Source: Cupriavidus pauculus (GTDB lineage Bacteria; Pseudomonadota; Gammaproteobacteria; Burkholderiales; Burkholderiaceae). Taken from it: DNA of 64,000 nt. Below, in pieces: positions 53,943-64,000 of this stretch. Position numbers and translations under genes: made by a program. A model generated the notes under the pieces. The model worked only from the letters and a program-made list of their open reading frames with translations, did no database searches and was not told the origin of the DNA. The stretch covers positions 124,001-188,000 of the forward strand of contig NZ_VZOW01000006.1 of the NCBI RefSeq assembly GCF_008801835.1. The letters are read 5' to 3'. Numbering within the stretch: the first letter of the stretch is position 1; every line of letters starts with the position of its first letter.

Positions 53943-54914
53943 ATGACGCTTCCCGTCCCGAACCGCGCCTGGCCCCTGCTTCTGGCCGCGATGACCGTGC
54001 CGCTGCTCGCTGCCTGCAGCAACGACAAGACCACGACCTGGCAGGGCTATGTCGAAGGGGAATTCGTCGCGGTGGCGTCGCCGTTCGCGGGCCGGCTCGA
54101 AAAGCTTGCCGTCGACCGAGGCCAGCAGGTCGACAATGGCGCGCCGCTGTTCACGCTGGAATCGGATGACGAACGCGCCGCGCGTCAGCAGGCCGCCGAG
54201 CAGGTGCGCGTGGCGCAGGCACAACTGGCCGACATCCAGACCGGCAAGCGCCCTGTGGAAGTCGACGTCAATCGCGCGCAACTGCTGCAGGCGCAGGCGC
54301 AGGCCAATCGCAGCGCCGCGCAGCGCAAGCGCGACGAAGCGCAGTTCGAGATCGGCGGCATCTCGAAAGCGCAGCTCGACGAAAGCCGCGCCACCGCCGA
54401 CGCCGACGCGGCACGCGTGCGCGAACTGCAGCGCGATATCGATGTGGCGCGCCTGCCCGGCCGCAAGGACCAACTGGCCGCGCAAAGCGCGCAAGTGGAG
54501 GCCGCGCGCGCAGCGCTGGCGCAGGCCGAATGGAAGCTGTCGCGCAAATCGGTCAACGCCACCGTGGCGGGCCTGGTCTACGACGTGCCGTTTCGCCCCG
54601 GCGAATGGGTGCCGGCCGGCAGCGCCGTAGTGCGCATGCTGCCGCCGGGCAACGTCAAGGTGCGCTTCTATGTGCCGGAGGCTGTGGTGGGATCGCTGCG
54701 CAATGGCCAGGCGGTCAGCGTCCGCTGCGACGGTTGCGCGGCACCCGTCGCTGCCACGATCACCTACGTGTCGAACGAAGCCGAGTTCACGCCCCCGGTC
54801 ATCTACAGCAACGAAACGCGCCGCAAGCTGGTATTCCTGATCGAGGCCCGCCCCGCCACGGCCGACGCCCCGAAACTGCGTCCGGGCCAGCCGGTAGAGG
54901 TGGCGTCATCATGA
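53943..54914 (+). CDS. HlyD-type membrane fusion lipoprotein (YbhG-like)
   Basis: A 323-residue periplasmic adaptor. The lipobox VPLLAACS places the lipidated Cys near residue 24. A biotinyl-lipoyl half (VASPFAGRLEKLAVDRGQQV) is split by a long coiled-coil hairpin rich in Gln/Ala/Arg (about 75-190), and a beta-barrel region follows (GEWVPAGSAVVRMLPPGNVK). It links the inner-membrane ABC pump with the outer-membrane factor encoded downstream. It starts 21 bp after tetR and overlaps the ATPase start as ATGA. Confidence 0.94.
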   Translation: MTLPVPNRAWPLLLAAMTVPLLAACSNDKTTTWQGYVEGEFVAVASPFAGRLEKLAVDRGQQVDNGAPLFTLESDDERAARQQAAEQVRVAQAQLADIQTGKRPVEVDVNRAQLLQAQAQANRSAAQRKRDEAQFEIGGISKAQLDESRATADADAARVRELQRDIDVARLPGRKDQLAAQSAQVEAARAALAQAEWKLSRKSVNATVAGLVYDVPFRPGEWVPAGSAVVRMLPPGNVKVRFYVPEAVVGSLRNGQAVSVRCDGCAAPVAATITYVSNEAEFTPPVIYSNETRRKLVFLIEARPATADAPKLRPGQPVEVASS

Positions 54915-55921
54915 CGGCCGCGGCAAACGGCCAGGGCGGCCTGGCGATCGATGTGCACAACCTGAACAAGCACTTCGGTGACAAGCACGTGGTCAACGAT
55001 CTGACCATGCAGGTGGCGCGCGGCGAGATCTTCGGCTTCCTTGGCCCCAACGGCAGCGGCAAGACCACGTCGATCCGCATGATGTGCGGCCTGCTGACCC
55101 CCGATTCGGGGTCGGGCACCTGCCTAGGATTCGACATCATCAAGGAAGCGGCGCAGATCAAGCGCAACGTCGGCTACATGACGCAGCGCTTTTCCTACTG
55201 GGAAGATCTGTCGATCCGCGAAAACCTCGATTTTGTCGCGCGCGTCTACGGCATGGCCAACCGCCGCGACGTCGTGGATCGTGCGCTGGAGGACCTGGGG
55301 CTGCAGTCTCGCGCCGAACAGCTGGCGGGCTCGCTGTCGGGCGGCTGGAAGCAGCGGCTGGCGCTGGCCGCGTGCCTGCTGCACAAGCCGCAGCTGTTGC
55401 TGCTCGATGAGCCCACGGCGGGCGTGGACCCGAAAGCGCGCCGCGACTTCTGGGAACAGCTGCATCAGCTGGCGGCGCAAGGCATCTCCGTGCTGGTCAG
55501 CACGCACTACATGGACGAGGCCGAGCGCTGCCACAAGCTTGCCTATATCGCGTACGGCAAGCTGCTGGCGCAAGGCACATCGGACGAGGTGGTCGCCAGC
55601 CAGCATCTGAGCACATGGAGCGTGGAAGGCGAAAACCTCGCCGCGCTGTCCGCGCAACTGCAAGGCAAGCCCGGCGTCGACCAGACCGTGGCGTTCGGCA
55701 CCGCGCTGCACGTCACCGGCAAGGACCCCGCGCTGCTCGAACAGACGCTCAGGCAGGCCGCTGGCGCCAATCATCGGATCACGCCAGCGCAGACCAGCCT
55801 CGAAGACGTGTTCATCTACATGATGGGCGGCGCACAGGACAACATGGCCACTGCGGGCGCCGGCAAGCCGGCCGCGCGGGCTGGGCGGAGCCGGCCGCAC
55901 GACACCCGGGAGCCGTCATGA
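54911..55921 (+). CDS. ABC-2 exporter ATP-binding protein (YbhF-like, single domain)
   Basis: A 336-residue ATPase with Walker A GPNGSGKTTSIRMMCGLL, signature LSGGWKQRLALAACLL, Walker B LLLLDEPTAGVDPKARRD and the H-loop STHYMDEAERC. The last 80 residues form the accessory C-terminal region of ABC-2 drug exporters. E. coli YbhF has two ATPase halves; this protein has one. The ATG at 54911 overlaps the HlyD stop, and the stop overlaps the permease start (ATGA both times), so the three are tightly coupled. Confidence 0.95.
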   Translation: MTAAANGQGGLAIDVHNLNKHFGDKHVVNDLTMQVARGEIFGFLGPNGSGKTTSIRMMCGLLTPDSGSGTCLGFDIIKEAAQIKRNVGYMTQRFSYWEDLSIRENLDFVARVYGMANRRDVVDRALEDLGLQSRAEQLAGSLSGGWKQRLALAACLLHKPQLLLLDEPTAGVDPKARRDFWEQLHQLAAQGISVLVSTHYMDEAERCHKLAYIAYGKLLAQGTSDEVVASQHLSTWSVEGENLAALSAQLQGKPGVDQTVAFGTALHVTGKDPALLEQTLRQAAGANHRITPAQTSLEDVFIYMMGGAQDNMATAGAGKPAARAGRSRPHDTREPS

Positions 55922-57081
55922 ACGCGCCACGGCAGCCATCGCGCTGGCATTCCGCGTTTTCCGTGCAGCGCTGGTGGAGCATCGTCCTCAAGGAATTCCT
56001 GCAACTGCGCCGCGACCGCGTGACGTTCGGCATGATCGTCGGCCTGCCGATCGTGCAGTTGCTGCTGTTCGGCTTTGCCATCAACAGCGATCCACGCCAT
56101 ATGCCGACAGCGGTGATCGTGGCCGAGCACAGCGATTTCTCGCGCACGTTCCTCGCCGCGATGGAGAACACCACGTACTTCAAGATCGTCCGCACAATGC
56201 CCGACGAGCAATCCGGCCGCGAGGCGCTGTTGCGCGGCGATGTGCAGTTCGTGGTCAGCATCCCGGCCGATTTTTCGCGTCGGCTGCTGCACGGCGACCG
56301 GCCATCGATCCTGGTGGAAGCCGACGCTACCGATCCGTCCGCCACCGGCCCGGCGATCGCGGCGCTGGCGCAATTGCCGGGCACCGTCGCGCGGATCGAC
56401 CTGAAAGGCGCGCTGGCACCGCTGGCAGGCGGCAAGCCCGCGTTCGATGTCAATGTGCAGCGGCTCTACAACCCGGAAGGCATCACGCAATACAACATCG
56501 TGCCGGGCCTGATGGGCACCATCCTGACCATGACGATGGTGATGATGACCGGCCTGGCGATGACGCGCGAACGCGAGCGCGGCACGATGGAAAACCTGCT
56601 GGCCACGCCGGTGCAGCCGATCGAGGTCATCTCGGGCAAGATCGTGCCGTACATCTTCATCGGGCTGGTGCAGGCCACCATCATCGTGCTGGCCGCGCAC
56701 TTCGTCTTCGACGTGCCGTTCCTGGGTTCGGTAGTCGCCGTGTATCTGGCTGCGCTGCTGTTCATCGCGGCCAACCTGACCGTTGGCATCACGCTCTCGT
56801 CGCTAGCCAGCAATCAGTTGCAGGCGGTGCAGCTCACGTTCTTCTATTTCCTCCCCAACATCCTGCTCTCGGGCTTCATGTTTCCGTTCGCGGGTATGCC
56901 GCGCTGGGCGCAATGGATCGGCAACGTGCTGCCGATGACGTATTTCAACCGCATGATCCGCAGCATCATGCTCAAGGGCAGCGGTTGGACGGAACTGTGG
57001 CCCAACGTATGGCCCGTGGCATTGTTCACGGTGCTCATCATGGCGATTGCGGTGCGCTTCTACAAGCGCACGCTCGACTGA
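55918..57081 (+). CDS. ABC-2 type exporter permease (YbhS/YbhR-like)
   Basis: A 387-residue inner-membrane permease. One helix near residues 38-58 (FGMIVGLPIVQLLLFGFAI) is followed by a periplasmic domain of about 130 residues, then five C-terminal helices (MGTILTMTMVMMTGLAMTRE; PNILLSGFMFPFAGMPRWAQ). RERERGTMENLLATPVQP is the conserved ABC-2 coupling motif. E. coli uses two permeases, YbhS and YbhR; only one is present here, so it should act as a homodimer. The likely cargo is a drug or lipid-like compound. Confidence 0.94.
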   Translation: MNAPRQPSRWHSAFSVQRWWSIVLKEFLQLRRDRVTFGMIVGLPIVQLLLFGFAINSDPRHMPTAVIVAEHSDFSRTFLAAMENTTYFKIVRTMPDEQSGREALLRGDVQFVVSIPADFSRRLLHGDRPSILVEADATDPSATGPAIAALAQLPGTVARIDLKGALAPLAGGKPAFDVNVQRLYNPEGITQYNIVPGLMGTILTMTMVMMTGLAMTRERERGTMENLLATPVQPIEVISGKIVPYIFIGLVQATIIVLAAHFVFDVPFLGSVVAVYLAALLFIAANLTVGITLSSLASNQLQAVQLTFFYFLPNILLSGFMFPFAGMPRWAQWIGNVLPMTYFNRMIRSIMLKGSGWTELWPNVWPVALFTVLIMAIAVRFYKRTLD

Positions 57082-57096
57082 CGGGAGAGCCCTGGC

Positions 57097-58581
57097 ATGC
57101 GAACTCATCCAACCTTGAACATGTCGATGGCGACGATTGCGGCGGCGATGGCGCTGCTGCTCGGCGGCTGCACGGTGGGCCCCGATTTCCGCACGCCCGA
57201 ACCGACCACGGACGCGCGCTACACGGCCAGCGCCCAGCCCGCGCAGATGAGCGCGGCCGGATATCCCACGCAGACGCTGGCCACGGCCGATATTCCGCGG
57301 CAATGGTGGGCGTTGTTCCGCAATCCGAAGTTGGACGAGACGATCCGCGTCGCGCTGGCAAATAGTCCGACACTGGCCCAGGCGCAGGCGCGCCTGCGCG
57401 AGGCCCAGGAAAACCTGGCCGCGCGCACGGGTGCGACGCAGTTTCCGCAGGTCGACGCCAAGCTCAACGCCACGCGCCAGCAGGTGGATCTGACGTCGGT
57501 CGGCATCACGCAGTTTCCCAGCCCCGGTCCGTTCACGCTGTTCAATGCCAGCGTGCAGGTTTCCTATGCGCTCGACCTGTTCGGCGGACAGCGCCGCGAA
57601 CTGGAGGGCTTGCAGGCGGCGGTCGATTACCAACGCTTCGAACTCGAAGCCGCGCGCCTGTCGCTGGCCGCGAATGTGGCCACCGCGGCGATCCGCGAGG
57701 CCAGCCTGCGCGCGCAACTGGCCGACACGACCGCCATCGCACAGGCGCAACAGCGGCAACTCGGCATCCTTCAGGCGCGACTCGAAGCGGGCGGCGTGGC
57801 GCGCGTCGACGTGCAACGCCAGCAAGCGGAACTGGCGCAGACACAGGCGCTGATTCCGGCGCTTGCGCAGCAGCTCGATGCCACGCGCCATCAACTGGCC
57901 GTCTACGCGGGACAGACGCCGGCCAGCGCGCAACTGCCCGCATTCACGCTCGAAGACCTGCACCTGCCGGACACGCTGCCGCTTAGCCTGCCGTCCGAAC
58001 TGGCGCGCCGCCGGCCGGACATTCGCGCGGCCGAAGCGCTGCTCCATCAGGCATCGGCCAATATCGGCGTGGCCACGGCGAATCTCTATCCGCAGATCAC
58101 GCTGACTGCCAGCGGCGGCACGCAGGAAATGCGCGCGCGCGATTTGTTCAACAGCATGAACATCTGGAGCCTCGCCGCCGGCGTGGTGCAGCCGGTGTTT
58201 CATGGAGGCGAGTTGCGCGCGCAGAAGCGCGCCAAGGAAGCGGCATACGAACAATCGCTGGGCGCGTATCGACAAGCGGTATTGCAGGGCCTGCAGAATG
58301 TCGCCGACACGCTGCGCGCGCTCGACGCCGATGCGCAGACGCTGCAGGCCCGCGCCGAAAACGCCCGGCAGACGCGCGACACATTGGCCATCGTCAGCGC
58401 GCAATACCGGCTGGGCGGCGTCAGCCAGTTCACCGTCATCGATGCGGAACGGCAGGCGCGCCAGGCCGCGCTCGATCTGTCGCAGGCCCGCGCCGCGCGG
58501 CTGGCCGATTCCGCCGCATTGATGCAGGCGCTGGGCGGCGGATGGTGGAACGCGCAGGAAACGCCGGGCGCGATCGAGTAG
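57097..58581 (+). CDS. Outer-membrane efflux lipoprotein, NodT/TolC family
   Basis: A 494-residue outer-membrane factor. The lipobox LLLGGC gives lipidated Cys25, followed by TVGPDFRTPE, typical of NodT-type proteins. Two repeated coiled-coil halves contain LAQAQARLREAQENLAA, SYALDLFGGQRRELEGLQAA and PSELARRRPDIRAAEALLHQ, all hallmarks of the family. It completes a tripartite pump with the HlyD, ATPase and permease genes. GGGAG precedes the ATG, and the gap to the permease is 15 bp. Confidence 0.96.
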   Translation: MRTHPTLNMSMATIAAAMALLLGGCTVGPDFRTPEPTTDARYTASAQPAQMSAAGYPTQTLATADIPRQWWALFRNPKLDETIRVALANSPTLAQAQARLREAQENLAARTGATQFPQVDAKLNATRQQVDLTSVGITQFPSPGPFTLFNASVQVSYALDLFGGQRRELEGLQAAVDYQRFELEAARLSLAANVATAAIREASLRAQLADTTAIAQAQQRQLGILQARLEAGGVARVDVQRQQAELAQTQALIPALAQQLDATRHQLAVYAGQTPASAQLPAFTLEDLHLPDTLPLSLPSELARRRPDIRAAEALLHQASANIGVATANLYPQITLTASGGTQEMRARDLFNSMNIWSLAAGVVQPVFHGGELRAQKRAKEAAYEQSLGAYRQAVLQGLQNVADTLRALDADAQTLQARAENARQTRDTLAIVSAQYRLGGVSQFTVIDAERQARQAALDLSQARAARLADSAALMQALGGGWWNAQETPGAIE

Positions 58582-58598: not shown

Positions 58599-59798
58599 TC
58601 AGCCGGCCAGAAACGCGCGCAAGCGGCGCACGCCTTCGTCGAGGCGCGCCACGTCGCAGGCGTAGCACCATCGCACGAAGCCTTCGCCCTCATCGCCGAA
58701 TGCGCTGCCCGGCGCGAGGCCCAGCCGGGCGTCGCGCACCAGCTGCTTGCATAGCGACAGGCTGTCGGCCGCACCGGCGAGGCGGAAGAACACGTACATC
58801 GCGCCGTCCGGCGCGTGCGCCTCGACGCCGGGCAGCGCCGACAGCGCGGCCACCAGATGATCGCGCGCCGTGCGCAGCCGCTGCACCAGATCCTGCGTAA
58901 AGGCCTCACCATCGCGCACGGCAACGACGCCCGCTTCCTGCACGAACGAAGGCGCGCACGAGGTGTTGTACTCGACCAGTTTGCCGAGATCGTCGAGCAA
59001 CGATGCGGGCAGCACCATCCAGCCAAGCCGCCAGCCCGTCATCAGCCACGCCTTGGAAAACGAGTTCACGGCGATCACACGCTCATCGCGGCTGGCGATA
59101 TCGAGGAAAGACGGCGCAACGCCGCCCTCGCGCCCGTAGTAGAGGCGCTCGTAGACTTCGTCCGCGATGATCCAGATACCGTGGCGGCGGCAATGGTCGA
59201 GCACGGCCTGCTGCTGCGCGCGCGACATCACCCAGCCGGTCGGATTGTTCGGCGAATTGATCATCACCGCGCGCGTGCCAGGCGTCAGCGCGCGCAGCAG
59301 CTTGTCGACGTCGAGCGTCCAGCCGTCGGCGCCGAAGTCGAGCGTGACCGTTTCCACTGTGGCACCGAGAATGCGCGGAATCTCCACCAGATTCGGCCAC
59401 AGCGGCGTGACTGCCACCACGCGGTCGCCTGGTCCCGCTACCAGCTGCGCAGCCAGCATCAGTGCATTCACGCCCGCGCTGGTCACGGCAATGTGGTCGA
59501 CCGGCGTCGCGCCGTGCAAGCGGCTCACGTAGTCGGACAACGCGGCGCGCAGCGGGGCGATCCCGAGGTTGTGCGTATAGAACGTCGCGCCGCCGGCAAG
59601 CGCCTGGGCGGCCGCATCGCGGATGAACTGCGGCGTGACCTGATCCGATTCGCCAAACCAGAACGGCAGCACATCGGGCAGGCCGATGCCGGCGTTGGCG
59701 ACCTCGCGGATGCGCGAGGCGCGCAAGCCGTGCACGATATCGCGCGCCAGCGGCGCGGCCTCGGTGGTGGAAGACTGGCGGGACGGGCTGACGGACAT
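58599..59798 (-). CDS. Class I/II PLP-dependent aminotransferase
   Basis: A 399-residue fold type I aminotransferase. NSPNNPTGWVMSRAQQ, ADEVYERLYYGREG and the PLP-lysine segment NSFSKAWLMTGWRLGW (Lys near residue 245) are present. The family includes aspartate, aromatic and valine-type enzymes. AGGAG lies 5 bp before the ATG at 59798; an in-frame GTG at 59804 is less likely. It is the last gene of the omega-aminotransferase-BKACE operon, 70 bp after BKACE. It may remove nitrogen from the same substrate or from its product; that is inference. Confidence 0.93.
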   Translation of the reverse strand: MSVSPSRQSSTTEAAPLARDIVHGLRASRIREVANAGIGLPDVLPFWFGESDQVTPQFIRDAAAQALAGGATFYTHNLGIAPLRAALSDYVSRLHGATPVDHIAVTSAGVNALMLAAQLVAGPGDRVVAVTPLWPNLVEIPRILGATVETVTLDFGADGWTLDVDKLLRALTPGTRAVMINSPNNPTGWVMSRAQQQAVLDHCRRHGIWIIADEVYERLYYGREGGVAPSFLDIASRDERVIAVNSFSKAWLMTGWRLGWMVLPASLLDDLGKLVEYNTSCAPSFVQEAGVVAVRDGEAFTQDLVQRLRTARDHLVAALSALPGVEAHAPDGAMYVFFRLAGAADSLSLCKQLVRDARLGLAPGSAFGDEGEGFVRWCYACDVARLDEGVRRLRAFLAG

Positions 59799-59868
59799 CG
59801 GCACTCCTGGGCGGAAAACGGATGAAGCGCCAAGCGTACCGGATTCCCGCCGCTCCCGCTGCCTTGCG

Positions 59869-60714
59869 CTACGCCAACGCGCCGCGCAGCTCGTCGGCCG
59901 TCATCGCCGCATAGCCAAGGCTTTGCAGCGGTGCCCGCACCGCGCGCAGCAGCCCGGCGTTGTCGGGCGCCGTCGATCCGTCGGGCAGCGTCATGTTGTT
60001 TTCGAAGCCGATGCGCGCGTGGCCGCCCAGCATCACCGCAGCGGCCGCACAATCGGCCTCCTGCCTGCCGAACGCGCACACGGCCCATTGCGTGCCACTG
60101 CGGTCGAGACCCGCTTCGGTCCAGGCCGCCAGGAACGGCAGCAAATCGGACGGCGACGATTTCTGACCCGCCGAATACCGCCCCAGCACGAACAGCACCC
60201 AGTGGCGTCCTTCGGGAATCGCACCGCTGGCGCGCAGCGCGGCGTAACGGCGCACGTCGTCGGCGTCGTACAGGATGTATTGCGCCACGACGTGTTCCCG
60301 ATGCATCCACTGGAAGAACTGCGCAGCGGCAGGCAATGCCGCGTCGTCGGGCGCCAGCTCGCGCACGGCAACCGACGCGGCCTCCGGGCGCAATGCCTGC
60401 ACCGTTGCGATCTGCTGTGCCGGCCGATAGATGCCCACGGCTTCGGTAGTGAGCTGCAGCACCAGTCGATCGCCGACTGCCTTGCGCACCGCCGCGATGG
60501 CGGGCACGTAGTCGGCCACTTCCAGGCTGTGCGTGGCGTCGGCCTTGCGCACGTGCAGATGGATCATGGCCGCGCCGGCGTCGACGCATTCGCGTGCGCA
60601 CTGCGCCAGCTCGTCGGGCGTGACAGGCAGCCGTGGATGATCGACATGCGTCTTACGTGCGCCATTGGGCGCCACCGCCAGCGCAAACGGCCGGCGCAGG
60701 GTTTCGCTTTGCAT
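59869..60714 (-). CDS. BKACE (beta-keto acid cleavage enzyme, DUF849) family protein
   Basis: A 281-residue TIM-barrel zinc enzyme of the family first known from 3-keto-5-aminohexanoate cleavage in lysine fermentation. It condenses a beta-keto acid with acetyl-CoA to give acetoacetate and a new acyl-CoA. The N-terminal VAPNGARKTHVDHP and the zinc motif HLHVRKADATHS are visible, as is RIGFENNMTLPDGS near the C-terminus. The substrate of each BKACE varies widely. It lies 10 bp after the omega-aminotransferase gene, which could supply the keto acid; the true substrate is unknown. Confidence 0.92.
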   Translation of the reverse strand: MQSETLRRPFALAVAPNGARKTHVDHPRLPVTPDELAQCARECVDAGAAMIHLHVRKADATHSLEVADYVPAIAAVRKAVGDRLVLQLTTEAVGIYRPAQQIATVQALRPEAASVAVRELAPDDAALPAAAQFFQWMHREHVVAQYILYDADDVRRYAALRASGAIPEGRHWVLFVLGRYSAGQKSSPSDLLPFLAAWTEAGLDRSGTQWAVCAFGRQEADCAAAAVMLGGHARIGFENNMTLPDGSTAPDNAGLLRAVRAPLQSLGYAAMTADELRGALA

Positions 60715-60724
60715 GGAACGATCC

Positions 60725-62050
60725 TCAGCCTGGCAGGACCTGGTTCACCGACTGCACGAAGCGGTCGACGATGTTGTCGATATCGGCCGGCGTGCAGATA
60801 AACGGCGGTGCAAACAAGACATGATCGCCATGAACGCCATCGACGGTGCCGCCCATCGGATAGACGAGCAGACCGTTATCCATGCAGGTGCGCTTGAGTG
60901 CCGCGTGCGTCTTGCGGGCTGGGTCGAGCGTCGCCTTGCTGGCGCGGTCCGCCACGAATTCCACGCCGACAAACAGACCGCGGCCCCGCACGTCGCCGAC
61001 ATTGGGATGCGCGCCGAGCGCTTCGCGCAGACGCGCGCGCAGCTGCTCGCCACGCGCCCGCACGTTGTCGAGCAATCTGTCCTCGGCAATCACGCGCTGT
61101 ACGGCCAGCGCTGCCGCGCACGCCGTGGCGTGGCCGATGTAGGTGTGGCCGTGCTGGAAGAAACCGCTGCCGCCGACAATGACATCGAAGATGCGCGACG
61201 TCGACAACATCGCGCCGATCGGCTGATAGCCCGCGGCCAGGCCCTTGGCGATGGTGACGATATCGGGCGTCACGCCGTCCTCTTCGCACGCAAACAGGTA
61301 GCCGGTACGACCCATGCCCGACATCACCTCGTCAAGGATTAGCAGCACGCCGTACTTGTCGCACACGGCGCGGATGCGCTTCAGGTAATCGCCCACCGGG
61401 GGCAGCGCGCCCGCCGTGGCGCCGACCACGGTCTCGGCGACGAAGCCGGCCACGGCGTCCGGTCCCAGTTCGAGGATCTTGGCTTCCAGTTCTTCGGCCA
61501 GGCGCTGCGCGTATTGGGCGTCGGTCTCGCCCGCGGCCTGGTCGCGATAGGCGTAGCACGGCGACACGTGATAGGCGGGCACCAGCAGCGGCAGGAACGG
61601 CTCGCGTCGCCACGCGTTGCCGCCGATGGCCAGCGCACCGAGCGTGTTGCCGTGATAGCTCTGGCGGCGCGCGATAAAGTGACGCCGCTGCGGCTGGCCG
61701 ATCTCCACGAAATACTGGCGCGCCAGCTTCAGCGCCGCCTCAACCGCCTCGGATCCGCCCGAAACGAAGTAGACGTGATTCAGATCGCCGGGCGCGGCCT
61801 CGGCCAGGGTGCGTGCCAACGTCTCGGACACTTCCGTGGTGAAGAACGACGTGTGGGCGTACGCAAGCGTATCGACCTGCGCCTTGATCGCCTCGATTAC
61901 GCGCGGATGCCCGTGTCCGAGACACGACACTGCCGCGCCGCCCGAAGCGTCCAGATAGCGGCGCCCATTGCTGTCGATCAGTTCGATACCGCTGCCGCCA
62001 ACGGCGACCGGCATGGTTTGCTTGGGATTACGGTGGAATACGTGCGTCAT
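60725..62050 (-). CDS. Class III (omega) aminotransferase
   Basis: A 441-residue PLP aminotransferase of the aspartate aminotransferase III family that acts on distal or beta-amino groups. DASGGAAVSCLGHGHPRV, the YFVSGGSEAVEAALKLARQY cofactor region and LILDEVMSGMGRTG are visible. The PLP lysine is in DIVTIAKGLAAGYQPIGAML. I chose the ATG at 62050 (MTHVFHRNPK) as the family start. It is the first gene of the operon, facing the RpiR regulator across 196 bp. It would give a keto acid or semialdehyde for the following BKACE. Confidence 0.94.
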   Translation of the reverse strand: MTHVFHRNPKQTMPVAVGGSGIELIDSNGRRYLDASGGAAVSCLGHGHPRVIEAIKAQVDTLAYAHTSFFTTEVSETLARTLAEAAPGDLNHVYFVSGGSEAVEAALKLARQYFVEIGQPQRRHFIARRQSYHGNTLGALAIGGNAWRREPFLPLLVPAYHVSPCYAYRDQAAGETDAQYAQRLAEELEAKILELGPDAVAGFVAETVVGATAGALPPVGDYLKRIRAVCDKYGVLLILDEVMSGMGRTGYLFACEEDGVTPDIVTIAKGLAAGYQPIGAMLSTSRIFDVIVGGSGFFQHGHTYIGHATACAAALAVQRVIAEDRLLDNVRARGEQLRARLREALGAHPNVGDVRGRGLFVGVEFVADRASKATLDPARKTHAALKRTCMDNGLLVYPMGGTVDGVHGDHVLFAPPFICTPADIDNIVDRFVQSVNQVLPG

Positions 62051-62107
62051 GGTTTGGAGAGGCAACAAGGGCGCAGCCGGAATGCGGCACTACGCCAGAC
62101 AGGTGCG

Positions 62108-62136
62108 AGTATAGGAACAACCTTTCGGGTACGCAA
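62108..62136 (-). promoter_or_regulatory. Sigma-70 promoter of the aminotransferase-BKACE operon
   Basis: On the minus strand, TTGCGT (62136-62131) and TATACT (62113-62108) are 17 bp apart. The -35 box overlaps the first operator-like repeat, as expected if a regulator blocks RNA polymerase. The leader would be about 50 nt. Confidence 0.6.
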
Positions 62137-62149
62137 CAATTGTTTCATT
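62133..62149. repeat. Operator-like repeat 1 for the RpiR regulator
   Basis: GCAACAATTGTTTCATT contains the perfect palindrome AACAATTGTT (62135-62144). It recurs with one change 78 bp away and overlaps the -35 box of the aminotransferase operon. Confidence 0.7.
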
Positions 62150-62210
62150 TTGCTGATTCAAAGAAACATATGCACCGACCGCCGTTGGCGTGAAGCGGGC
62201 GGCAACCTGT

Positions 62211-62227
62211 GCAACAATCGTTTCATT
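62211..62227. repeat. Operator-like repeat 2 for the RpiR regulator
   Basis: GCAACAATCGTTTCATT is identical to repeat 1 except for one base. It ends 20 bp before the rpiR-type start codon, where it could block the regulator's own transcription or translation. Confidence 0.7.
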
Positions 62228-62246
62228 CCATCTTTCGCAAACGCCG

Positions 62247-63143
62247 ATGTCCGCCGATTCCGCCACCCCGCCGCAGTCCCTCGATGCGCTGATGAGCCAG
62301 CTTCGGGCCGAGTTTCCCAATCTCAGCGCGCAATTTCAGGGCGGCGCGCGATATCTGCTCGATCATCCGCGCGATATCGCCATCCAGTCGATGCGCAAGG
62401 TGGCGGCAAGCGCCGGCGTGCAGCCCGCCACGCTGGTGCGGCTGTCGCAATCGCTCGGATTCGAGGGATGGCAAGCGTTGCGTGAGCTGTTCGTCGCGGC
62501 CGTGCGCGAAAACGGCAGCCAGCCTTATGCGCGGCGCGCGCGCAAGGTGGTCAAGGAAACCGGATCGAGCAAGATGCTTGCGGAGATGATCGAGGTTCAG
62601 CACCACAACCTCGACACGCTGCTGGCCAACAATGCCGATGCGCTGCCGCGCGCCGCCGATCTGCTGGCCGCCGCGCCCACCGTGCACGTGGCCGGCTTCC
62701 GCTCGTGCTTTCCGATTGCGTTCACGTTTCACTATATCTACGGGCTGTTCCGCAGTTCCGTCAGGCTGATTCGCGGCGACGCCGGCACGCTGGAAATGGA
62801 ACTGCGCGCGCTCGGCGCCAAGGATGCGGTGTTGGTGGCAGGCTTCGCGCCGTATTCGCAGGAAAGCCTGCGCGTGGCCACCGCCGCACGCGACGCGGGA
62901 TGCAAGGTGATCGCGCTGACCGACAGCACGGTGGCGCCGATCGCGCTCGAGGCCGACTGCACGCTGCTGTTCGCGATCGACAGCCCGTCGTTCTTTCCTT
63001 CGATCACCTCGGGCGTGACGATGGTGGAAGCGCTGGTCGAACAACTGCTGGCGCGCAAGGGCAAGGGCGCGATCCGCGCGCTGGAGCAGACCGAGGGTCA
63101 GCTCCACCGCACCGGCGCCTATTTGCCCGAAGGCCGTCGCTGA
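62247..63143 (+). CDS. MurR/RpiR family transcriptional regulator
   Basis: A 298-residue regulator with an RpiR helix-turn-helix in the first 80 residues (VAASAGVQPATLVRLSQSLG) and a SIS domain near 125-260 (VHVAGFRSCFPIAFTFHYIY; ALTDSTVAPIALEADC). SIS domains usually bind phosphosugars, but many RpiR members beside aminotransferases respond to amino acid-derived ligands. The ATG at 62247 (MSADSATPPQ) was preferred to one at 62190 that lies upstream of the operator. It is divergent from the aminotransferase-BKACE operon and is its probable regulator. Confidence 0.93.
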   Translation: MSADSATPPQSLDALMSQLRAEFPNLSAQFQGGARYLLDHPRDIAIQSMRKVAASAGVQPATLVRLSQSLGFEGWQALRELFVAAVRENGSQPYARRARKVVKETGSSKMLAEMIEVQHHNLDTLLANNADALPRAADLLAAAPTVHVAGFRSCFPIAFTFHYIYGLFRSSVRLIRGDAGTLEMELRALGAKDAVLVAGFAPYSQESLRVATAARDAGCKVIALTDSTVAPIALEADCTLLFAIDSPSFFPSITSGVTMVEALVEQLLARKGKGAIRALEQTEGQLHRTGAYLPEGRR

Positions 63144-63165: not shown

Positions 63166-64000
63166 TTATTCGAACGCCTCGTCGTTCGGATTGGCGTAGG
63201 CCTTTTTGATCTGCTCGCTCTGCGGCAGGTCGAACGACAGGTTCTTCGGCGGCACCGGTTTCTGGAACCACTTCGCGTACAGCGTGTTGATTTCGCCGCT
63301 GCGCATCAGACTGCTCATTGCGCCGTCAACCACCTGTTTGAAGCCGGGATCGTCGCGCCGCATCATGAAGCCATAGGCCTCGAACGATTGCGGCGTGCCG
63401 ACCACCTGCCAGTCGTTCGGATTCGGCGCCAGCGTGCGGGAACCGGACAACAGCACGTCGTCCATCATGAACGCCGCCACGCGGCCCGACTGCAGAATCA
63501 GGAACGATTCGCCATAGTCCTTGGCACTCTGGATCGTGATATTCGCGCCCTTTTCGTCGTTCAGCCTGCGCAGGATGCGCTCCGACGTGGTGCCCGCGTT
63601 GGTCACCACGTTCTTGCCTGAGAGATCGCCAAAATCGTGCACCGGACTGCCCTTCTTCACGAGCAGGCGCGTACCGGCAACGAAATAGGTGGTTGAGAAC
63701 GCCACCTGCTGTTGGCGCGCCTTCAGGTTGGTGGTGACGCCGCATTCGAGATCGACGGTGCCGTTCTGCACCAGCGACATGCGGTTTTGCGACGTGACCG
63801 GCACCATGCGCACTTGCAGGTTCGGCGTGGCGGTTTCCTTCTTCACGGCGTCGACCACGCGATCGCAAATATCCTGGGCGAAACCGATCACCTTCTGGTT
63901 GGCGTCGTAGTACGAAAACGGAATCGACGAGGTGCGATGCCCGATCGAAATGGCCCCGGACGACTTGATCTTGCTGAGCGTGGGGCTCGCAGCCACATCG
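63166..64000 (-). CDS. gltI: Glutamate/aspartate ABC transporter binding protein, 5' end missing
   Basis: The last 277 residues of a periplasmic family 3 solute-binding protein; the gene runs off the right window edge and lacks its signal peptide. GHRTSSIPFSYYDANQKVIG, VPVTSQNRMSLVQNGTVDLE and GTTSERILRRLNDEKG closely follow E. coli GltI, and VAFMMDDVLLSG contains the ligand-contact region. It would deliver glutamate or aspartate to a GltJKL-type permease encoded beyond the edge. It is convergent with the RpiR gene across 22 bp. A link with the adjacent aminotransferase operon is possible, but opposite transcription makes it uncertain. Confidence 0.94.
   Translation of the reverse strand, partial: DVAASPTLSKIKSSGAISIGHRTSSIPFSYYDANQKVIGFAQDICDRVVDAVKKETATPNLQVRMVPVTSQNRMSLVQNGTVDLECGVTTNLKARQQQVAFSTTYFVAGTRLLVKKGSPVHDFGDLSGKNVVTNAGTTSERILRRLNDEKGANITIQSAKDYGESFLILQSGRVAAFMMDDVLLSGSRTLAPNPNDWQVVGTPQSFEAYGFMMRRDDPGFKQVVDGAMSSLMRSGEINTLYAKWFQKPVPPKNLSFDLPQSEQIKKAYANPNDEAFE

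Follow-up and report, generated by a model that had tools for sequence, protein, structure and literature searches.

A DUF849 clade with a changed active site at the centre of a probable new catabolic module in Cupriavidus pauculus and its relatives

What may be degraded by an operon that places a class III aminotransferase ahead of a protein labelled as a beta-keto acid cleavage enzyme (BKACE)? The question arises from a stretch of 64,000 nucleotides of the 6.4 Mb genome of Cupriavidus pauculus (GCF_008801835.1, contig NZ_VZOW01000006.1, positions 124,001 to 188,000), which we call the window. By our analysis the operon probably forms a new catabolic module with a rewired clade of the DUF849 family at its centre, and the BKACE label should not stand for the reaction of that clade. 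On balance we lean, from sequence comparison, towards a module that would transaminate a beta-amino acid and decarboxylate the product, without cleavage by acetyl-CoA. The genes in question are the following.

60725-62050, minus strand: class III aminotransferase of the PRK07483 type (ATIII), 441 aa, ATG start, first gene of the operon
59869-60714, minus strand: putative beta-keto acid decarboxylase with the DUF849/BKACE fold, Asn231 clade, 281 aa
58599-59798, minus strand: class I aminotransferase of the PRK06108 subfamily, 399 aa counted from the ATG, optional third gene
62247-63143, plus strand: RpiR-type regulator (HTH_6 and SIS domains), 298 aa, ATG checked, divergent from the operon

The three minus-strand open reading frames were verified in this order of transcription, with gaps of 10 bp between ATIII and the DUF849 gene and of 70 bp between the latter and the class I aminotransferase gene; coordinates and profile matches bear out this layout, divergent RpiR/SIS gene included, as it had been described in an earlier, sequence-only reading of the window. 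ATIII matches PF00202 (314.9 bits) and the NCBIfam model PRK07483/NF005685 (806.9 bits, cut-off 485), the only model over its cut-off among the best 25 of 69 NCBIfam matches, while the putrescine aminotransferase model gives 251 bits, below its cut-off of 612. Lys269, which we take to be the pyridoxal-phosphate lysine, is kept in 13 of 13 aligned homologues. With the earlier reading we share the view of a catabolic-looking module led by an omega-aminotransferase, which probably makes a beta-keto acid.

Active site of the DUF849 clade

The second gene product is a DUF849 member by profile (PF05853, 226.7 bits against a cut-off of 24.8). The best Foldseek match of its AlphaFold2 model (predicted local distance difference test, pLDDT, 93.7; predicted template modelling score, pTM, 0.91) is Kce, 2y7d (E 4.3e-22), to which the protein is 28-30% identical, and cis-epoxysuccinate hydrolase 5zmy is also among its matches. 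It shares with Kce-type BKACE the TIM-barrel fold, the HxH plus Glu zinc site and the equivalents of Arg226 and Tyr145 (numbering follows the Kce chain minus 6, which places HxH at 46/48 and the tyrosine at 145). Unlike these enzymes, it has Asn (residue 239 of the window protein), Gln and Ile at the conserved acids Asp231, Glu141 and Glu143, new glutamates at 84 and 111, and new arginines at 14, 110 and 175.

The same pattern runs through a whole clade. The zinc ligands His46, His48 and Glu230, as well as Arg226 and Tyr145, are kept in the window protein and throughout the 73 aligned clade rows (72 genes, the window protein and L049 being one gene); Asp231 has become Asn and Glu143 Ile in 73 of 73, and Glu141 has become Gln in 72. 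Glutamate is gained at Gly84 and at Thr111 in 73 of 73 rows each, and arginine at Gly110 (70/73), Val175 (70/73) and Glu14 (68/73). In the DUF849 rows outside the clade, by contrast, Asp231 stands in 55 of 55, and Glu141 together with Glu143 in 48 of 55. The clean split of the clade from these 55 rows at residue 231 is our finding, to be read with the composition of both sets: the 55 rows are a non-random collection (30 top-scoring matches, 20 hand-picked from a list of 14 genomes, two paralogues from the window genome, L048 and two PDB sequences), and the clade loci were found through patterns and a profile built from clade members, which makes the universal Asn231 partly a product of selection. 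In a quick tree the clade forms one side of a branch with Shimodaira-Hasegawa-like approximate likelihood ratio test (SH-aLRT) support of 100, where its join to the neighbouring group may be a long-branch effect.

Assignment to a BKACE equivalog was rejected, the models for Kce, 3-oxoadipate and 3,5-dioxohexanoate cleavage giving 119.9 of 382, 90.5 of 350 and 81 of 430 bits. Judged by these residues and scores, the clade probably consists of zinc enzymes that have the BKACE fold and a rewired active site and are not canonical BKACE. The family name suggests acetyl-CoA-dependent cleavage, and therefore pathway predictions made from the name may be wrong. Divergent chemistry is described for another DUF849 member, BsfD, in a paper in which Tyr145 is thought to be catalytic (PMC12871164).

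The family shows two further departures. An alanine replaces the first zinc-ligand histidine (Kce His46) in the DUF849 proteins of L168 and L169. The branch that leads to those of L173 and L175 is very long, and they retain Asp231 in an active site that otherwise follows quite another pattern.

Conserved neighbourhood and the slot beside ATIII

A comparison of gene order, which the sequence-only reading had proposed as a check, began from 38 loci found in a search for relatives, 37 of them belonging to the same DUF849 clade and one, L048, not. Of the 37 clade loci, all but L037 and L039 have ATIII at most 1.5 kb from the DUF849 gene (35 loci), and 31 have RpiR no further than 5 kb away. Chance neighbourhood was rejected, as the gene set is conserved across many taxa.

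A large clade seems to carry a rebuilt version of the fold. Its profile found matches in 32 of 398 Pseudomonadota genomes drawn from across the phylum, at 33 loci, and in 6 of 300 genomes drawn from the order. Neighbours in the phylum draw, counted by tblastn and hence as lower bounds, include ATIII within 1.5 kb at 25 of the 33 loci (19 of 25 genera); at 20 loci it shares the strand and stands no more than 300 bp off. A TAXI binding protein lies within 6 kb at 16 loci, RpiR within 5 kb at 14, a 3-hydroxyacid-dehydrogenase-like gene within 500 bp of DUF849 at 5, and the class I aminotransferase gene no more than 3 kb off at 2 (the window and G594). Eight Cupriavidus-type loci (L011-L017 and L019) have contigs long enough to include the position of the class I gene; seven of them possess it, L016 does not, and in C. 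plantarum L020 it was not seen. The core is ATIII-DUF849, often with RpiR, and the class I aminotransferase is optional; a need for two transaminases as an essential pair was rejected, the class I gene being near at only 2 of 33 loci. One record deserves a separate remark: the contig of L038 is titled Mesoflavibacter (a Bacteroidota metagenome-assembled genome), its DUF849 groups with those of Rhodospirillales L043 and L045 (SH-aLRT 100), and the gene order is common to them; the record is probably mis-binned or mis-titled.

Loci where ATIII lacks this partner also bear on the reaction. A PRK07483 search at E <= 1e-150, with all matches over the curated cut-off, gave 54 places in 53 of the 398 genomes, of which 24 are, by coordinates, beside a clade DUF849 gene and 30 are not. 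Twenty of these 30 were examined (one, L179, is a contig of 5.3 kb whose neighbours are partly unseen), and 9 of the 20 carry a replacement gene, either carboxymuconolactone-decarboxylase-like (CMD-like, six loci) or of the PF01177 type from the Asp/Glu-racemase superfamily (three loci). The CMD-like gene adjoins ATIII in L176, L177, L182, L189 and L190 and stands about 1.6 kb off in L186; the PF01177-type gene comes after ATIII in L181, L191 and L193, with a solute-binding-protein match in between. Among the 73 loci with a clade DUF849 gene, one (L105) also has a replacement-type gene, about 8 kb away. Both the CMD and the PF01177 families include decarboxylases, and decarboxylation after transamination would be the best explanation because three unrelated families, each with decarboxylases, fill one slot.

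Five of the six CMD-like proteins reach the PF02627 cut-off of 23 (23.0, 26.8, 38.7, 32.7 and 37.5 bits), and all six have EW..H in common and no CxxC. The two PF01177-type proteins that were scored, those of L191 and L193, reach 37.6 and 51.6 bits against a cut-off of 31. Each has one cysteine in its C-terminal part (Cys172 in L191, Cys168 in L193), a few residues ahead of an LAQF stretch, presumably the place of the second catalytic cysteine in two-cysteine racemases, which decides nothing here. A PDB search with a CMD-like protein gave a best E of 0.055, and one with a PF01177 protein gave no match.

A DUF849 group which may correspond to our clade has been published. According to PMC4922564, one 'not BKACE' group, G6 of Bastard, decarboxylates beta-ketoglutarate and makes up 70 of the 725 family members. 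The Asn231 clade has a share near to it, 33 of 273 PF05853 matches in the 398 genomes (summed by hand, with fragments counted and up to six candidates scored per genome). We infer that the clade may be G6, which it resembles in its share of the family.

Substrate and rival explanations

Genes linked to the module bear on its substrate. In L092, from another family of Burkholderiales, a relative of RpiR (30% identical; Pfam detects SIS and not the helix-turn-helix) shares one strand with SBP_bac_3, GlnP and GlnQ (both above their NCBIfam cut-offs), a C45/AAT hydrolase, ATIII, DUF849 and, directly downstream of the latter, an acetoacetate-CoA ligase (898 bits, cut-off 520.9); the window genome encodes such a ligase elsewhere (774.5 bits). 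L105, from another class of the phylum, has transporter genes 69-71% identical, a C45 hydrolase, ATIII, RpiR and DUF849, and the same transporter and hydrolase recur in L176 and L182 with the CMD-like gene, so that GlnHPQ-type uptake genes are found in all four. In L181, of another genus, a relative of the window's GltI-type binding protein (49% identical) is situated between ATIII and the PF01177-type gene. C45-type hydrolases belong to the module in L092, L103, L105, L176, L177 and L182; L038 has an amidase (PRK08310, over cut-off) with relatives in L042, L043 and L045, and a creatininase-like gene, below cut-off, occurs in L099 and L102. Aldehyde dehydrogenase (PF00171) is present in L107, L117 and L186 and, by gene-family clustering, for which 19 of 74 loci were dropped beforehand (18 near-duplicates of Cupriavidus and Pandoraea, plus L048), in L116 and L118.

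The best fit to Glu/Asp- and Gln-type uptake, the gained arginines, the amide hydrolases of some loci and the one acetoacetate ligase is a beta-amino acid with an acidic or amide side. ATIII would transfer its amino group to a keto acid, yielding a beta-keto acid, from which the DUF849 protein would remove CO2 with no acetyl-CoA cleavage, the class I aminotransferase being perhaps an optional helper. As leading substrate we tentatively name beta-glutamate or its amide beta-glutamine, because of the Glu/Asp- and Gln-type transporters, the gained arginines and the published beta-ketoglutarate-decarboxylating group. Decarboxylation of 3-oxoglutarate, obtained from beta-glutamate, yields acetoacetate, and the route would then run from beta-glutamate through 3-oxoglutarate to acetoacetate and CO2, and further to acetoacetyl-CoA.

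This route stays hypothetical: a marine habit is not known for the named Cupriavidus and Pandoraea, and beta-alanine or some other beta-amino acid may be the substrate instead. Beta-glutamate is an osmolyte of methanogens, and beta-glutamine was found in Methanohalophilus, as stated in PMC1224877; in Nitrosopumilus maritimus, a marine archaeon, beta-glutamic acid at 730 mM is the top identified metabolite according to PMC8269262, and KEGG holds a single entry for beta-glutamate according to a gut study (PMC12502400). No catabolic genes for beta-glutamate were found among the papers listed from the open-licence literature, judged mostly by titles and abstract openings, and no described pathway was found there for this gene set, its enzyme or 3-oxoglutarate, which agrees with the earlier failure to match the set to a named pathway. 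It is possible, if still doubtful, that we deal with the first gene set for catabolism of beta-glutamate and beta-glutamine, in which uptake by GltI, GlnHPQ or TAXI-TRAP and, where present, amide release by C45 hydrolase or amidase would be followed by transamination to 3-oxoglutarate and by decarboxylation to acetoacetate through one of three unrelated enzymes, namely a DUF849 protein of the Asn231 clade, a CMD-like protein or a PF01177 protein. If true, this would provide a sink for an osmolyte abundant in Nitrosopumilus maritimus and name a bacterial route for an archaeal osmolyte.

The reaction assumed by the sequence-only reading, in which DUF849 cleaves the ATIII-made beta-keto acid with acetyl-CoA to acetoacetate and a new acyl-CoA, has in its favour the retained fold, zinc ligands, Arg226 and Tyr145, and the acetoacetate-CoA ligase of L092 suits it equally well as it suits 3-oxoglutarate decarboxylation; 7 of 32 control loci with canonical DUF849 genes also have a class III aminotransferase match nearby. 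We nevertheless hold it unlikely, given the replacement of all three acids, the equivalog cut-offs missed and the occupation of the slot at 9 of 20 loci by CMD-like or PF01177-type genes, from families that include decarboxylases and for which use of acetyl-CoA is not expected. The clade might also perform some other reaction on the keto acid, such as hydrolysis, isomerisation or tautomerisation. PF01177 does include racemases and isomerases, and the cis-epoxysuccinate hydrolase (5zmy) and BsfD (PMC12871164) show that this fold has changed its chemistry before; the CMD-like replacement and the published decarboxylating group favour loss of CO2, and we rate such a reaction as distinctly unlikely.

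Quite improbable, in our estimate, is a pathway for beta-alanine or beta-alanyl amides, where ATIII would give malonate semialdehyde, DUF849 or the CMD-like protein acetaldehyde, and an aldehyde dehydrogenase would finish the job. The C45-type hydrolases would suit it, as an insect member of that family cleaves beta-alanyl amides, and so would the aldehyde dehydrogenase genes of the five loci named above. The latter family is, however, absent from the clustered Cupriavidus and Pandoraea loci, and the gained arginines with the Glu/Asp- or Gln-type transporters point to a larger or more acidic amino acid.

Several observations weigh against transamination with decarboxylation as well. At the active site, the participation of Asp231 in Kce catalysis is a presumption; other sampled DUF849 proteins (L003, L168-L175) have unusual active sites too; the gained arginines are not universal (R14 in 68, R110 in 70 and R175 in 70 of 73); and no ATIII residue proves use of beta-glutamate. 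In the neighbourhoods, the gene in 2 of the 25 ATIII-bearing phylum loci (G487 and G489b) is of a different class III type (37% identity), and 8 of 33 loci have no ATIII within 1.5 kb; of these eight, G461, G604 and G234 have the dehydrogenase, G489 (L103) has ATIII about 2 kb off, and G571, G546, G399 and G579 have neither beside DUF849. The control set of canonical DUF849 loci shows a class III aminotransferase within about 1.5 kb in 7 of 32 and a dehydrogenase in 13 of 32, and therefore such pairings are not unique to the Asn231 clade. As for the slot, 11 of the 20 DUF849-less ATIII loci have neither replacement and 10 more such loci lie outside the sample; the CMD hits are weak (23.0-38.7 bits against 23), with none for L182 although its protein is 55% identical to that of L177; and both families include non-decarboxylases besides decarboxylases. 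The acetoacetate-CoA ligase was met at 1 of 94 loci searched (L092) and at 0 of 33 in the phylum sample, and the equation of the clade with G6 is itself an inference.

Regulator, binding protein and neighbouring genes

The regulator belongs to the RpiR/MurR family by both domains (PF01418, HTH_6, 36.1 bits against 28.3; PF01380, SIS, 36.7 against 25). Two palindromes lie between it and ATIII, and one further gene follows it.

62210-62225, no strand: O1, operator-like palindrome TGCAACAATCGTTTCA, 21 bp ahead of the RpiR start codon
62132-62147, no strand: O2, operator-like palindrome CGCAACAATTGTTTCA, upstream of ATIII
63166-64000, cut by the window end, minus strand: GltI-type solute-binding protein, whole gene L049:6167-7114, probable accessory

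All 15 RpiR/ATIII intergenic regions that were aligned (11 of Cupriavidus type, counting the window and C. plantarum, and 4 from Pandoraea) carry the 13-base core of O1, AACGATTGTTGCA, without variation; O2 aligns in the same 15 with looser conservation, and a -10-like TATACT is found near it at 62108-62113 on the minus strand. The motif TGNAACNATTGTTGC, derived from O1 and O2, matches only these two places across the 64 kb window. As the palindromes are conserved, it would be reasonable to suggest that RpiR controls the operon, and its own gene, through O1 and O2 as putative operators. In some Alphaproteobacteria (L040, L041, L044) RpiR stands ahead of ATIII on the same strand.

The GltI-type protein matches PF00497 (98.7 bits), and its closest solved structure is 2ia4/2vha (332.5 bits). 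The full gene is barely above the cut-off of 375 for Glu/Asp binding (NF008063, 378.1 bits), and the window-cut part by itself gives 368.6. Of the nine close Cupriavidus-type loci (L011-L019), eight have it; no Pandoraea locus does. The earlier suggestion that this neighbour serves the pathway holds in so far as the protein is real and its relative in L181 lies beside ATIII; the gene is, however, convergent with RpiR, and its membership in the operon was rejected.

The class I aminotransferase scores 189.7 bits with PF00155 and 646.7 with NF004770/PRK06108 (cut-off 422); an alternative GTG start is at 59804. Modules for degradation of ectoine, taurine and polyamines use class III aminotransferases, and ours resembles them in combining such an enzyme with an uptake system and a dedicated regulator; it differs in that ATIII is of the PRK07483 type and its partner is a DUF849, CMD-like or PF01177-type gene.

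A 3-hydroxyacid/carnitine-dehydrogenase-like gene is found beside clade DUF849 in L037, L093-L095, L098, L100, L109 and L110. Carnitine-type BKACE loci carry a 3-hydroxyacid dehydrogenase too, but all three dehydrogenases tested here fall short of the cut-offs for carnitine dehydrogenase, and the DUF849 proteins are of the Asn231 clade. A gene of sugar-acid dehydratase type accompanies it in L037, L093 and L094 (PRK06131, over cut-off in L037 and L094, by similarity in L093), and the clade Arg14 is a Tyr in L093-L095 and L100. These loci may represent a sister pathway that starts with a beta-hydroxy (sugar) acid, and in some loci lacking ATIII the dehydrogenase is possibly another route to the beta-keto acid.

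In L109:9591-12759 and L110:7175-10459 a different class III aminotransferase (PRK07482-like; 556 bits in L110, under the cut-off of 687), a dehydrogenase-like gene and clade DUF849 stand in a row. Genes resembling 5-oxoprolinase subunits, recognised by eye, lie a few kb from the module at L122:14403-17082. In the window itself the operon is adjoined at 53943-58581 by convergent, efflux-like genes outside the module, named by eye as an HlyD-like protein, an ABC ATPase/permease and an outer-membrane factor.

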